Assembly: GCA_036169595.1 (NCBI GenBank)
Contig: CM069766.1
Coordinates: forward strand, 3,920,001 to 3,940,000
Direction: 5' to 3'
DNA: 20,000 bases
Source: Dictyostelium firmibasis
Lineage: Eukaryota > Evosea > Eumycetozoa > Dictyosteliales > Dictyosteliaceae
Positions within the stretch are counted from its first letter, which is position 1; each line of letters starts with the position of its first letter. Below the pieces are notes generated by a model that made no database searches, was not told the origin of the DNA, and saw only the letters and a list, made by a program, of their open reading frames with translations. Shown in pieces: positions 6,259 through 17,725 of the stretch. A program made the position numbers and the translations under genes.

Positions 6259-8209
<1,951 letters not shown>

Positions 8210-8532: not shown

Positions 8533-11500
8533 ATGTCAGAAGATAAATCAGGATCACTTTATTCTATGCATAAATTATGCGGTGAGCTTCAAAACGAATC
8601 ATCACATTCCGGTAAAACTCAATTGATTAAATCATTTTGTAATGTTTTTAAGTATGTATATTCTATTTATTTATTATATTTATGATCAATTTATTGGTTC
8701 GCTAATATTAATATTTTTTTGTGGAAAAAAGGGGAGATTTATATTTATTGGCAAAATTAATGTTATGTAAAGAGGATAAAAGAGTGTTTAGAATAAAGGA
8801 CAAAGCAATGTTAAAAATTTGTTCACATATTTGGGATTGTGATTTAGATGACATGATTTCAGATTTAGATAGTGGTGATTTCACTGAAACTTGTAAAAAA
8901 GTAATAATTCCATATTTATATCTATATTTAATTAATCAATTTATTAATAAAATGGTTAATATTATTATTATTATTAGTTTTATATAGAATATGGTAAATA
9001 TCCAGAGAAAAGTACATTAACATTAAAAGAAGTTGATCAAGTTTTAGATTCATTGACAGCCTCAGGTAAATTCGATGACCAAGTAAAGATTATCAATAAA
9101 TTATTGAAAAGATGTACACCATTTGATTTTAGATTAATTTGTAGAATTATTGATAGTGATCTAAAGATAAATACTGGTGCAAAATTCTTTTTAGATGCAC
9201 TTCACCCACAAGCATATGATGCATTTAAAAAAGCAAATAATTTAAAAGGTGTAATCGAAAAAATTCAACAACATGATTTTGATAACAATGATGATGATGA
9301 TGATGATGATAACGACGAAGATGATAGTGATAGTGGAAAGAATAAAAAAAAGAAAAAATCAAGTTCTTCGAGCGATGGAGACAAGAAAAAAGGTAAATCA
9401 TTTGAAGTTGCAATTAAACTAATGACACCAGTTAAACCAATGTTACCAAAAGCAGTTAAAACAGTTGAGGGTGTTATAAAGAGTAGTGAATGTTTTTATG
9501 CAGAGATTAAATATGATGGTGAACGTATTCAAATTCATAAAGATGGAAATCAGTTTAGTTGTTATTCACGTAATCTTAAACCATTGATGCCATGGAAAGT
9601 GGAAGAAGTTAAATCATACATTCCAAAGTCTACAAAGGCTCAACAGATGATATTAGATGGTGAAATTCTTTTAATGGATACCAAAACATGTACTCCTCTA
9701 CCATTCGGTACCTTGAGTGTACATAAAAAGAATGGCTTCGTCGACGCAACAGTTTGTGTATTTCTTTTCGATATTCTATTTATAAATGGTAAATCATTGA
9801 TTCATTTACCATTGAAGGAGAGAAGAGAGATATTGGAGAAGAATGTATCGGTTGTAAAGAATCGTATCGAGTTCTCAGAGGTCACCGTTGTTAATGGCGC
9901 ATCGGAGAAATCGAAATTAACAGCATTGTTGAATAGAGCTTTCAAAGAGAAACTTGAAGGTTTGGTAATTAAAGATGCAATGTCTGAATATGAACCTGGT
10001 TGTAGACATTGGATTAAAATTAAAAAGGATTACATTCAAGGTATGGCTGATAGTGCAGATTTAATAGCTGTCGGTGGTTATTATGGTTCCGGTTCAATGG
10101 GTGGTTTGGTAACCGTTTTCTTAATGGTTTGCTATGATAAACAAAATAAAATCTATAAAACTGTCGTGAAAGCAAGTGGTGGTTTGGATGATAATGCCAT
10201 AGCAAAACTTCAACCAAAAGTAATGAGTACTATGACAAAGATTTCAAAAGATGTTTCAAAGATTCCTTATTGGTTAGATTGTAGTAAACAATATGCTCCA
10301 GATTTCATTGTAAAAGATATCAAACAAGCAATGATATTTGAAATAGAATCGGCTGAATTCACAAAAAGTGATCACCATTCCACAGGTTATTCAATGCGTT
10401 TTCCACGTATCATTAAAATTAGAAATGATAAAGATTATAAAACTGCCACAACACTTGAGGAGTTAATTGATATTGGTAAAGATGTTAAAATTGTTCCATA
10501 TGGCAAAGATGATAAAGTTGCAAAAACATCGTCACCAACAACTAGTACTACAACAACAACATCTACTACTTCATCAAAATTAATTAAAAAACAATTATCA
10601 GATGACGAAGGAGATAATAATAACGATGAATCTAATAAATTAAAACAACAAGAATCATCCAAATTAACATATGTAAGTGGTGATTTAACAGATCCATTTT
10701 CAAATTCAGGTGATGAATCCAATAAAACCTTTATATTGAATTATGTTGATAATTCTGGTAATTGGAATGAAAAAGGTTTATCTGGAGCAATTGGTAAGAA
10801 ATGGCCCTCAGTTCCAAAAGCATTTTCTCAAGGTGAATCAACTATAAAGAGTGGTGAGATTCGGGTTGAAAAAGTAAAATGTGATACTACCATCCCATCA
10901 GGCAAAAAGATTTATGTTTGTAATGTCTCTTGTATCGTTCCACCAAAATCTAAAAAAGAATCCTATTCTTTCTCATTGAAGGATTTTAAATCTGCAATAA
11001 AGGAAGCAAAAGGTGCTATCAATCAACAAAAGGCTTCAGTTCATTTAGTTAAACCACAGTTCTCTTCACCTTCTTGGTCTGAACTTGATGAACTATTAAC
11101 AAAAGAATTATTTAATAGTGGTATAAAAGTATTTGTACATTCAATTTCAAAATCATCACCAATAATTCAATCAAAACAGAAAACTACAACAACAACAACA
11201 ACAACAACAACAACATCGCCACAATTATCATCATCACCATCAGAATCAACTTCATCTTCAAAAATTAGTCCATTGAAAAGGGGTAGAGATGAAAAATTAG
11301 AACATGAAATAATAAAAGATATTGAGCCTTCTTTACCAATATTCGAAGATGTTAATGCTGTGATCGATAGTAAAACAATTAGTGATATTGATAGAAAAAG
11401 ACTGGTAAATTCAATTAAAACCATGGGTGGCCGTATATCAGAGAAATGGGAACAAGTTGGTGTGGGTAAAACAACACATTTAATTTGTAATGGAATGAGT

Positions 11501-12145
11501 GATCTATATTTACATGTCGATCGTTTAGGTGGCACAATTGTTTTACCCGATTGGGTTGACCAATGTTTTGGCTCTGATAAATTACTCCCATTACATGATG
11601 ATTTCATTTATTTCAATAAGAAAGATCATCCAGATTATTCACAATCTTCATTGCTAATTGAAGAGGATAAAGTTGTCATTACCTCTGAAGATACCACAGA
11701 GGGTAACCAACAACAAGAAGATAAAAAAGTTATTAAAGAATCTAAAATCATCCAATCAAAAAATCAATCCTCCACTACCACCATCGATACTACAATAACT
11801 ATAACATCCACAAATAACAATACTAGAAAGAAACAACATCTTTTATCAATTTTCCAAGAATGTAATATATTTTTACATGGCAATGTAAATGATAGAGAAA
11901 CTTTAAAAAGATATATCATTGCCTATGGTGGTGATATTTCAGATTCAATTGGTGAAAATACCACTCACTTAGTTGCTTCCCTTCCAAATAATTTCTCAAA
12001 TGTAAAACCAAGAGATCTTTTTAAATCTATAGTTAATAATAATAATAGTTGTAGTAAAAATGGTATGATTGTAAATTCTTTATGGCTATGGGATTCAATT
12101 AATATGAGTGACCTTTTAGATGTAAAAAATTATAAACTTTTTTAA
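8533..12145 (+). CDS. lig3: ATP-dependent DNA ligase III with macro-like region and two BRCT domains
   Basis: Exons 8533-8651, 8732-8900 and 8978-12145 give 1151 residues. The introns are 8652-8731 (GTATGT, phase 2) and 8901-8977 (phase 0). It seals nicks in nuclear (and in animals mitochondrial) DNA. The N-terminal DNA-binding domain (about 1-195) matches human LIG3: HKLCGEL, GDLYLLAKLMLC, DDMISDLDSGDFTET, LICRIIDSDLKINTGAK and LDALHPQAYDAFK. An Asp-rich/Lys/Ser linker follows (about 196-235). The catalytic core has motif I EIKYDGER with the adenylated Lys at residue 274, motif III CVFLFDILFINGKSL, motif IV EGLVIKDAMSEYEPG and motif V HWIKIKKDYI, then the OB fold ending near MRFPRIIKIRND. 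After a Thr/Ser linker, residues 659-820 resemble an ALC1/CHD1L macro domain. Two BRCT domains follow: about 885-977 (GGRISEKW, THLI, DWVDQC) and 1051-1151 (GGDISDSIG, THLV, LWLWDSI). There is no N-terminal PARP-type zinc finger. The second junction is chosen because FYIEYGKYPEKSTLTLKEVD aligns with human LIG3. Confidence 0.95.
11184..11216 (+). repeat. ACA/Thr run between macro-like region and BRCT1 of the ligase
   Basis: About a dozen consecutive Thr codons, almost all ACA, open a Ser/Thr/Pro-rich linker in the ligase. It marks a flexible spacer between the macro-like region and the first BRCT domain. Confidence 0.8.
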
Positions 12146-12595: not shown

Positions 12596-13104
12596 ATGGT
12601 AATGATGGAAGGAGCCACCCCACCAGCAAAATTAGTACCATTTTCATTAAAAAAAAAGAAACCAGCTGCAATAGTACCAACTTCTGCAACTGTGGCATCA
12701 ACAACACAAACAACAAATACAGCAATTACACCATCAACAGAAAAACAAACTTCAACTAATGATACACTAATATTTGAAACTAGAAAAAAAACAGAACCGG
12801 TAGAGTCACTAGAACCAGTGGAAGCAGCAAAAGAAAAAACAGCATCAACAACAGAAAATATTAATGATTCACCAAGTACACTAATACCAAATATATCAAT
12901 TATAGGACCATCAAATCCTGCGCCAATAGTTTCAAATAGCAGTAATAACAATAGTAGTAATAATAATAAAAATGATAATGATACATCAATGAAAAATATT
13001 GGAGAGGAGGAAGAGGATTTATATGCAGATATTACATTTGTTAGTGGACCTTCCACGAATGTTGATACTGATGATGAAGAACAGTATCATCAACAACAAC
13101 AACC

Positions 13105-13162
<58 letters not shown>

Positions 13163-16100
13163 CCGGAATTAGATATAAATAAAAAAACCGATACAAATAT
13201 AAATGGTATGATACCAATGGATACAGATTCAAAATCATCATCGAGAAACCAAAAAACACCAAAAAAAAACAATAATTTAATAAACAACAAAGCGAGCAAT
13301 GAAGCATTTTTCGATAAAGATTCATTTAAAATAAAACTACAGGTTATAAACCCAGAATCATATACAGAGGAGGAAATCCACGATATTAATTTAAATTCAG
13401 TTCCGTCTGAAATTTATATGAACCCAACGACAATTGGTGACAAACTACAACAACAGCAACAACAACAGCAACAACAACAGCAAAAACAACAAAAGCAAAA
13501 AAATAATAGCAATAAAAATAATAGTAATAAAAATCATGGCCATATCCATGTTGTTGGTAGTAAAGATCAAATTAATTCCTTAGAGGATGAAAAGAGGTAT
13601 ACACAAAGATATAGATATTTAAAGAGTAATGAGGAGATATTGAATAAACCAATTTTTAAAGAGATCGAAGAAAATCCAAATGCACCATACAATAAGCCGT
13701 CTGGGTATATCATTTACCAAGAGAAATCAAGTGAAACATTACATGATGAGGTTGAATATGATATGGATAGTGAGGATGAAAAATGGCTAGAAGAATATAA
13801 TAAAACTCAACCTACTAATAATAAATATTCTGAAGATGATTTTGAATTTGTCGTAGATCGATTAGAGAAAGAAACTTTTAAATATGTATGTAATTACATC
13901 TCTCTCTCTCTATTTTCAAGTTTTATTTGAGTTTATATTTATATATTAATATTGTTAAAATTATAATTTATTTGTTATTTGTTTATTTTTATTATTTACT
14001 TATGTTAGAAACAAGAGATTGGAAGTGATATGTTTCCCCATTTTAGTTCAGTTGAAGCAGATGATGTTTGTGGTGTTTGTTTTGATGGTACTTCAGATGA
14101 CACTAATCAAATCGTATACTGTGATGGTTGTGATATAGCAGTACATCAAGATTGTTATGGTATACTATTGATTCCCGAAGGTCATTGGTTCTGTCAAAAA
14201 TGTGAATCATCAGAGAAAGATTCAATTTCATGTGTTTTATGTTTTAAAAAGAATGGTTCTTTCAAACAAACTATGGATGGTGAATGGGTTCATTTGGTTT
14301 GTGCTTATAATATACCCGAATTAAATCAAATTATAAGTAAGTAAATAAATAAATAAATTAAATAATAATCAATTTTATTTACAAAATATTATTACTATTT
14401 TAGAAAAAGGTAGTGGTAGGGAAAAACTTGGTCCCCCTGGACTGCTTGGTAATATTTTAAAGAAAAGAAAGAAATTAAAATGTATTATATGTAAAAAAAT
14501 AGGTGGTGCTTGCGTTCAATGTCGTGAAAGACATTGTTCTGTGGCATTTCATCCTTATTGTATAAAAATGAATCAAAAATCGATGATAGATGAAAATCTA
14601 AATCCTCATATAATATTTTGTAAAAAACATGTATGTATACTAAATACAAAATATTAGTTTCCCCAATTTTTTACAATAGAAACCTAACGAAATATTTGTT
14701 ATTATTTTAGTTTTTAAGAAATAATAATATAAATGGTAATATAAAGGACTTTTTAGATGATGGAGATGGCAATGATATTAACAGCAGTAGCGGTGGTAGT
14801 GAAGAGGATAGCGATGGTGATTATATAGAAAGTGATCAAGACGAATCTAATGATGATGATAATTTCGAGGTAATTAAAACGCCCTCAAAAAAATCAAACC
14901 TATCAAATAAATCCACACCTTCAAAATCTAAACCACATCCACCAAAACCAAAGTTCAAATCTAAAAAACAAACAAACCATAAAAAGAATAAAAAAATAAT
15001 AGATTCAACAGAAGAAGACGACAATGATGAAGGAGAAGATGACGATGATGAGGAGGAAGAAGATGACGATGATGAAGAAGAAAAAGAGGAAAAGGAGGAA
15101 AAAGAGGAAGAAGAGGAAATTAAAAATAAAAACAAAAAGAGAAACAATAGTAACAATAAAAATAATAAGAATGAGATAGCTGATGATAGAGAAAAGAAGA
15201 AATTAAAAGCGGCCAATAGTAGTAATAATAATAATAGTAATAATAATAATAATAATAATAATTATAATAATAATAATAATAATAAAGCAGCCACCTCTAA
15301 AAAAACTATAGAAAATAATACAACAGCTGCAACAGCAACAACTTCCACATCAACAACAACAACAAAAACCACTACTACAACAGGTATCACAGCAAAGAAA
15401 GTAGGATTAATATCCTCATCAAGGGCGGCAAAAGTAATTAGAGAGCATCCAAGTTCATTCGTTCATGCAGTTTATGATTATTGGGTAAAGAAGAGAATAT
15501 CAAGAAGTGGATTGGCATTAATTAAAAGATTTCAACCATCGATTCTATTTAGTTTGAGATCTACATTACATGCCAAAGATCCAGGTATCAATTCAGTGTC
15601 TGATTATAATAAGATGTTGGCACTTCGTGAAGATCTAGAAAGAACCAGAACCATTTTAGAGTTAATAAAGAAAAGAGAGAGGCAAAAGAGAGAACTAATT
15701 ATAAATATGCGTAATCAAATTGAGGCTACAATTCTTAATGACTATCATTTTCTAAGAATGGTTTTAAAGAGTTTGGAATCGATTGAACAATTGAGACCAT
15801 TCTATGTACCAGTTTCAGAAGAAGAAGCACCCTCTTACTTTTCAATAATCAAACAACCAATGTCATTTCAACAAATTAAACAATCTTTAAATACTTATGC
15901 TTACGAGAATACTGATGATTTTTGGAAAGATTTGACCTTGATCTATACAAATGCTCAATTTTTTAATTGTTCAAAAACTGTAGTTTATAGAGCATCTCGT
16001 TTACTTCAAGAGATTACCAACAGATTAGAATCCAATTGTCCTTCTAATGTAACACCTCAAGAATTGGATGACTTTATAAAAAATGTTAAATATCCTTCAA

Positions 16101-17725
16101 AGAAACCTTCTACCATTGATTCATCGTCAAAGAAATTACCAACGCCATCAAAATCAAAAAATGTAAAATCTTCGTCTTCAACCACAACTACAACAAATGC
16201 AACAACAACACCAACAACACCAACAACACCACCAACAACCCCAATAAAAATCTCAACCCCAGCCATATCTACAGTTGAAACACCAAAAGCAACAAGTAGA
16301 ACAAGATCAATGGTAGCTCATGAACAAGAAAAGGAAAAAGAAAAGGAAGAACAGGAAAAACCAAAGAAACCAAAAGGTTTACCTACACAACCCACTCCTC
16401 GAACAAGATTGGCAGATTCGAGATTAGCTACAATAGAATCTCCTGCTAAATCAACTCCACTACCCAAAGACCAAGAACAATCAAAAACTCCATCGAAAAA
16501 GCTACAACCTCCACCAAAAACTCCACCACCTCCAACGTTAAAAACTACGAAAACCACACCGCCAAAAACACCAATTACCTCTCCGACATCGGCACCTAAA
16601 ATAATTACAAGATCTACCACACCATCAAAAACACCCCTACCACAAAAGGATGCAACTCTAACATCAATCAAAGTGGCCACAAAGGGAACTCCTCCACCAA
16701 GAACAGTCAAACCAAATCCAAAACCACCCCCAAAACCTCAACAAATAGCAACAACAACACCAAGATCAAAGTCCAGGTTATCTACAGAACCTCTACCTTC
16801 ATCATTAGTATCATCCTCATCTTCAAGAATACCATCCCGAAGAAATTTACAAAAACAACTTGAAGAGTCATTGGATGATCAAATGGAATTGGATGATGAA
16901 AATGAAAATGAAAACGAAAACGAAAATGAAAATGAGAATGAAAATGAAAATGAAAATGAAAATGAAAATGAAAATGAAAATGAAAATGAAAATGAAAATG
17001 AAAATGAAAATGAAAATGAAAACTTAGAGACCGAGAAAAATGAAGAGGAAGAAAAAATTGGAGAAGATTGTGAAGAAATGGAAGAAGGAAATGATCAAAA
17101 AGAAAATGACTGTGATGAAATAGAAACAGATGTAGAAGATTATGGAATAAGGAGAAAAAAAAGATCATTATCACCATTGAGAGTAACTCTACCAAATACA
17201 CAACAACTAATGCTATTGGATACAGTCAATACTCAAACTGATATTAAAAGTAGGAGTAAATCCAATCTTGATCAAACAACCAAAGCATTGTTTAATGTTC
17301 CTCAAATCATCAAAAGGGTTGCCGTGATTGGGCAACTCAAACATATTCCTCTGGAAATCAATTTCTCAAAAGAACTCACCGATGACCTTAGAGAGTTACT
17401 GTCAATCACAAAAGAAATTCAAGCTGTTGAAAAAGATGGTTTCCTCTCCCAATCCAACAGGTCCGTCACTATCAAAGAGGGTTTAAAATTCATTGAGCAT
17501 GTTGATTTACGTATTCTAAAAGGTGCTTATGATCGTAACAAAAAAACATTTTGGGATCATATTGAGAAAATTGCTCGTCGTATTCCTTCGGAATATACAA
17601 ACTCAAAAAAACTAACACTTGAAAAAATTTTTGAATTAAAAGAAAAATATAAGCAAAATCACCCAGAAATTTTTCAAGAAGCAGAGGAGGAAGAAGAGGA
17701 AGAGGAGGAAGAAAAAGATGACTAA
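12596..17725 (+). CDS. BRPF/Jade-type chromatin reader: EPC-like, PHD, zinc knuckle, extended PHD, bromodomain
   Basis: Exons 12596-13885, 14009-14336, 14404-14630 and 14711-17725 join to 1619 residues. The introns are 13886-14008 (phase 0), 14337-14403 (phase 1) and 14631-14710 (phase 0). BRPF proteins are nuclear scaffolds of MYST-type histone acetyltransferase complexes. A low-complexity N-terminus with two Gln runs leads to an EPC/EPL1-like segment ending EYDMDSEDEKWLEEYN...DRLEKETFKY (to 430). The PHD finger (about 450-500) has CGVC, YCDGCDIAVHQDCYG and GHWFCQKC. The linked knuckle and extended PHD (about 503-615) have CVLC, GEWVHLVCAYNIPE, CIICKKIGGACVQC and AFHPYC. An acidic/Lys/Asn-rich spacer follows, then a BRPF-like helical stretch (YWVKKRISRSGLALIKRFQ, LELIKKRERQKRE), then a bromodomain (about 955-1058) keeping the acetyl-lysine Asn in FFNCSKTVVYRAS. 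A Pro/Thr-rich region, 21 Glu-Asn dipeptides and a charged C-terminal segment follow. I see no PWWP domain, unlike animal BRPFs. The ATG at 12596 is the first of three clustered in-frame ATGs. Family confident; exact orthology not. Confidence 0.9.
13091..13162 (+). repeat. CAA repeat coding for Gln run 1 of the BRPF-like protein
   Basis: Four Gln, one Pro, then 19 Gln, all CAA codons. This is an expanded microsatellite in the disordered N-terminal region, upstream of the EPC-like segment. Confidence 0.95.
13448..13498 (+). repeat. CAA/CAG repeat coding for Gln run 2 of the BRPF-like protein
   Basis: Twelve Gln codons with a regular CAA-CAA-CAA-CAG rhythm, then a Lys/Gln alternation. The mixed codons suggest an older run than the pure CAA tract upstream. 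Confidence 0.9.
15010..15120 (+). repeat. Asp/Glu-rich purine-dense coding tract
   Basis: About 37 codons of nearly continuous Asp and Glu with a few Lys. The coding strand is almost all purine apart from the T and C of Asp codons. The tract sits between the extended PHD finger and the bromodomain, in an intrinsically disordered acidic linker. Confidence 0.85.
16898..17023 (+). repeat. Hexanucleotide repeat (GAAAAT)21 coding for 21 Glu-Asn dipeptides
   Basis: Exactly 126 nt of GAA/GAG-AAT/AAC pairs. The few synonymous changes (AAC, GAG) cluster at the 5' end and the last unit, so the centre looks recently amplified. A dipeptide repeat from a six-base unit is less common here than single-residue runs. 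Confidence 0.95.

Follow-up and report, generated by a model that had tools for sequence, protein, structure and literature searches.

Animal DNA ligase III has an N-terminal PARP-type zinc finger and reaches breaks by way of this finger and XRCC1; the human enzyme, LIG3, has a single BRCT domain. In Dictyostelium discoideum, Gunn et al. searched with macrodomain profiles, with ALC1 among the queries, and reported in 2016 six macrodomain proteins, three of them unannotated until then, among these three the DNA ligase III orthologue (DDB_G0283857) (PMC5087659). A 2021 review repeats the presence of a macrodomain in this ligase III (PMC8529158). In the text examined, neither paper assigns the ligase III macrodomain to a class or tests it, and the 2016 report (PMC5087659) presents neither an analysis of its residues nor a binding assay; no dedicated study of it was found in a literature search that mostly covered journals outside subscription. 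The ALC1-like class is defined by similarity to the macrodomain of ALC1 (CHD1L) (PMC7050489). In ALC1 this domain is fused to a chromatin remodeler, and two bacterial proteins of this type, SCO6735 and BT1257, have been solved as single-domain proteins. Here we describe the ligase III gene (lig3) of Dictyostelium firmibasis and the domain inserted in its product.

Gene model and domain order of lig3

The window, which is the whole 20,000-nt stretch of DNA that was analyzed, contains a complete lig3 gene (Table 1). A D. discoideum lig3 primer published as lying at -753 matched without mismatch at 7780, which places the start codon at 8533 (7780 + 753), in agreement with the gene model. Eight D. 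discoideum lig3 primers were tried, with cloning tails removed from four of them. Two matched exactly, both in the upstream gene; four fitted best within lig3, at 2-5 mismatches (P14 may have an engineered end), and two had no clear place. One of these four, dnR, falls at +3042 here compared with 3112 in the paper. When D. discoideum exo1 and polq primers were searched against the whole genome with their tails removed, one of the three matched with 2 mismatches and the other two had no match within 3. The mismatches speak against D. discoideum as the source, and the first-pass annotation was right in taking the DNA for that of a dictyostelid. The upstream neighbor (6754-8209), a Golgi pH regulator (GPHR) family gene, appears as two ORFs and contains a long stretch of Asn. 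Downstream lie an enhancer-of-polycomb-like (EPL1) ORF (12596-13930) and an ORF that encodes a bromodomain and a long Glu-Asn repeat (15512-17725).

Table 1. Features of the lig3 gene (positions are those of the window).
Feature	Position	Strand	Basis and remarks
lig3 gene, 3 exons, 1151-aa model	8533..12145 (8533-8651, 8732-8900, 8978-12145)	+	Sole open GT-AG combination among those tried
DNA_ligase_A_N (DNA-binding domain)	8566..9205	+	Pfam E=9.8e-33; two introns interrupt the domain
Ligase catalytic core	9437..10432 (DNA_ligase_A_M 9437-10024, DNA_ligase_A_C 10103-10432)	+	Pfam 3.8e-54 / 1.2e-10
Macrodomain, assigned with near certainty to the ALC1-like class; residues about 658-819, low-complexity linkers on both sides	10661..11146	+	Sequence profiles and fold
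Asp665 codon, aligned with ALC1 Asp723, conserved	10682..10684	+	Alignment
Gly696 codon, aligned with ALC1 Gly750, conserved	10775..10777	+	Alignment
Phosphate-binding (second) loop: VKPQFSSPS, replacing a PRIGCGLAGG-type segment	11048..11074	+	Alignment
First BRCT domain	11336..11569	+	Pfam BRCT
Second BRCT domain, LIG3_BRCT type	11840..12136	+	Pfam LIG3_BRCT 2.8e-15, BRCT_2 1.2e-16

In the protein, 11 residues precede the DNA-binding domain, which is followed by the adenylation and OB domains, a low-complexity linker (residues 612-655 or so, some 45 in all), the macrodomain, a Thr/Ser-rich linker, a BRCT domain and a LIG3-type BRCT domain. We compared the core with PDB chains and found human LIG3 to be the nearest (E=6.8e-128), with LIG4 (2.2e-46) and LIG1 (1.3e-41) far behind. 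Given this core and the LIG3-type BRCT domain, the gene product is, as judged from its sequence, a genuine DNA ligase III, and the first-pass annotation had named the host protein correctly. The amoeba protein shares the ligase core and the C-terminal LIG3-type BRCT domain with animal DNA ligase III but differs from it in the absence of a zf-PARP domain and in the presence of the macrodomain and an additional BRCT domain. Searches of lig3 showed no zf-PARP: the first 197 aa rose above the Pfam cut-off solely for the ligase N domain, and a zf-PARP profile search of the genome (E up to 10) gave four matches, every one of them on contig C1, whereas lig3 lies on contig C2. The contrast with the zinc finger of animal LIG3, implied in the first-pass annotation, is borne out by these searches.

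Evidence for an ALC1-like-class macrodomain

The first-pass annotation had placed an ALC1/CHD1L-type macrodomain at 10664..11150. Position 10664 opens codon 659 in the 1151-aa model and thus shares the reading frame of the ligase, and the ALC1-like motifs that had been quoted are present in the translation. A domain does occupy this span; its limits are better given as in Table 1, approximately, from residues 5-166 of the structure model described below.

The insert was compared with PDB chains by phmmer. ALC1/CHD1L (7enn_K) ranked first, with an E-value of 4.9e-5 for the 176-aa query and 3.1e-7 for the 242-aa query, the lower value being partly owed to the flank. BT1257 was the second match (E 0.002-0.016 across the two queries). 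We then relied on an HMM of three members, ALC1, BT1257 and SCO6735, from which lig3 was excluded against circularity. The 176-aa lig3 fragment scored 43.5 bits with this HMM, compared with 5.9 bits for the highest-scoring of 2000 shuffles. Of the 190 six-frame pieces (at least 40 aa) that the window yields, the lig3 ORF alone was significant (E=1.4e-11; the next was 0.23). ALC1 alone gave 31.6 bits against the lig3 domain (best of 2000 shuffles, 8.0), and an HMM of 18 bacterial relatives gave 38.2 bits (best of 2000 shuffles, 6.6), which is half of the 79.8 bits that the same HMM gives for ALC1.

The 18 bacterial relatives were obtained from a scan that yielded at least 591 candidate stretches; tblastn confirmed their kinship with lig3, at 20-25% identity and with E-values that are relative to the candidate stretches only. 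The DNA pattern of the scan required an HxCNDxGGWG-like motif, so the conservation of this motif in the 18 is partly by construction. All 18 loci entered the alignment (A3), each trimmed at its match start and two (L013 and L020) also at the match end. No macrodomain was found on the insert by Pfam-A or NCBIfam, and the curated cut-off of Pfam Macro (PF01661) was not reached. TraI_2_C, the best Pfam match on the insert (E=0.016), was under the cut-off and was set aside as a chance match.

A model of the domain had a pLDDT of 83, and its top fold matches were BT1257, SCO6735, ALC1, TARG1 and DarG. This model used an alignment with the 18 bacterial ALC1-like proteins, and so its fold does not count as evidence separate from the sequence comparisons. 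Single-sequence AlphaFold2 gave a pLDDT of 41 and was left out of the fold search. The titles of 50 VIA-align rows name macrodomains, ADP-ribose phosphatases and designed serine hydrolases, apart from a few that are uninformative; the designed hydrolases are built on a macrodomain scaffold. The Foldseek list turns to unrelated proteins from about rank 40 downward. The predicted fold is that of a macrodomain and is nearest to members of the ALC1-like class.

Similarity to the ALC1 macrodomain, which defines the class, was thus found for the insert, and we are almost certain that the insert is an ALC1-like-class macrodomain. The proposed kinship with ALC1/CHD1L now rests on a top phmmer match, on lig3-free HMM scores far above those of shuffles and on a significant match in fold. 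The two domains are 25-26% identical and share D723 and G750 (ALC1 numbering) and the KASVHL strand. Both contain a VD(D/N)SG(H/N)W segment that is one residue longer than the bacterial sequences at this place; as a sign of relationship, this extra residue is only suggestive. The first-pass annotation had also asked whether other dictyostelid ligases carry the domain, and the macrodomain reported for D. discoideum Lig3 (PMC5087659) supplies a case.

We also searched for macrodomains elsewhere. The Pfam Macro profile marked three places in the genome, lig3 not among them, in line with the three macrodomain proteins that had earlier annotations in D. discoideum (PMC5087659). A BT1257 fragment (E up to 10) had one match in the genome, the lig3 insert (E=0.005), in a search that scored the best candidates only, exon by exon, and that may miss more distant relatives. 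When viral contigs (IMG/VR) were scanned with the lig3 domain alone, no relative was found among 14 stretches; with alignment A2, relatives were found in 5 of 44. These five (L029-L033) are SCO6735/BT1257-type macrodomain frames of 172-275 aa, and one of the contigs is 369 kb long. By eye, none of the five frames is long enough for a ligase, and two start at or near the DNA edge or have an uncertain upstream frame. Such viral frames possibly act as counters to DNA ADP-ribosylation.

Ligand pocket and candidate roles

The pocket was examined by alignment with ALC1 and SCO6735, with residue equivalences that, at about 25% identity, depend on where MAFFT places its gaps. Two residues reported to be needed for PAR binding in ALC1 are conserved in lig3 (Table 1): the ALC1 variants D723A and G750E are described as PAR-binding mutants, and the G750E primer printed in the same paper fits the second Gly of GRGGLF (PMC7895907). 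The second loop is different. A glycine-bearing loop of the PRIG...G form is a common trait of the class and not its definition; ALC1 has PRIGHATKG there, the bacterial sequence L010 has PRIGSGLAGG and the other 17 of the 18 bacterial loci have PRIGCGLAGG. The lig3 loop is two residues shorter and has no glycine, and the replacement of the PRIG-like loop suspected at first sight is thereby upheld. SCO6735 Gly126 and Gly128 correspond to K788 and Q790, and a Gly128 mutation impairs SCO6735 (PMC9411070).

Furthermore, SCO6735 Gln85, His24 and Asn27, whose roles are described in PMC9411070, correspond to Ile749, Asn684 and Asp687. Gln85 is the equivalent of TARG1 Lys84 and DarG Lys80 and is conserved in ALC1 homologues (PMC9411070). 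ALC1 retains it as Gln804, whereas lig3 has neither Lys nor Gln there. At the place of Asn27, ALC1, which is a reader, has Asp as lig3 does. At least 17 of the 18 bacterial relatives agree in 56 columns of the alignment; lig3 has the conserved residue in 18 of these columns and differs in 38, with a gap in three of the latter. This residue pattern makes an eraser unlikely and a reader plausible, and a loss of binding is also possible.

We lean slightly toward the reading that the insert acts as an ADP-ribose reader in DNA ligase III. ADP-ribosyltransferases would deposit ADP-ribose at the break, and the macrodomain would hold the ligase close to it, with the BRCT end bound to XRCC1. In this way the macrodomain would do some of what the PARP-type zinc finger does for animal LIG3. 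Here we infer the binding, the recruitment, the XRCC1 contact and the division of labor with the zinc finger. The reader role is supported by the retention of D665 and G696 at the sites of the ALC1 PAR-binding mutants, by the loss of the hydrolase Gln/Lys position together with the changes at the His24 and Asn27 places, and by the ALC1 match, the lig3-free profiles, the bacterial relatives and the model fold. It also fits the lack of zf-PARP in lig3 and the presence in the genome of a coding region for XRCC1_N, which the profile matches once. In addition, D. discoideum APL, a different protein, needs its macrodomain for chromatin enrichment after cisplatin (PMC5087659). Against the reader, disruption of D. 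discoideum lig3 is reported to leave the tolerance of PARP inhibitors unchanged (PMC8529158, PMC5622368), which provides no PARP-linked phenotype.

The shortened, glycine-free second loop, the effect of the Gly128 mutation in SCO6735, Ile749 in the place of ALC1 Gln804, the changes at 38 of 56 family-conserved columns and a bacterial-profile score half of that of ALC1 also speak against the reader. Apart from the SCO6735 mutation, they are what a degenerate macrodomain would show, one that has kept its fold as a spacer or protein-protein module and lost useful ADP-ribose binding, with recruitment left to XRCC1 and the BRCT domains alone. We regard such a loss as possible but doubtful, since lig3 keeps Asp665 and Gly696, which correspond to ALC1 residues important for binding PAR, and the domain is probably present in the ligase III of two species, D. 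discoideum and D. firmibasis. The hydrolases SCO6735, DarG and TARG1 are among the closest folds, and a hydrolase of this kind could clear ADP-ribose from DNA or protein before ligation; with Ile749 at the Lys84/Lys80/Gln85 position and the His24 and Asn27 places also altered, we consider this very improbable. In ALC1, the macrodomain keeps the motor inactive until PAR binds (PMC7895907, PMC5745148). By analogy, the lig3 macrodomain, which comes after the catalytic core in the chain, could pack on the core and be released by PAR, but the low-complexity linker of some 45 residues favors loose tethering, and a regulatory switch of this kind seems unlikely to us. We give little more credence to a bolder proposal by the same analogy, in which the ligase would read the PARP signal itself and the macrodomain would both replace the zinc finger and gate the core until ADP-ribose is bound.

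Meaning for dictyostelid ligase III

The ligase III macrodomain was already published for D. discoideum in 2016, and the present analysis confirms and refines a known oddity. What is new is the assignment of the class, the state of the pocket at residue level and the absence of zf-PARP from lig3. D. firmibasis is probably the second species with a ligase III macrodomain, and lig3-disrupted strains exist in D. discoideum (PMC5622368). The domain adds a dictyostelid member to a class that a review describes as easy to find in animals and patchily distributed in bacteria (PMC7050489). If it is a reader in a ligase that has no zinc finger, it would show that the last step of ligation can become coupled in evolution straight to the PARP signal.
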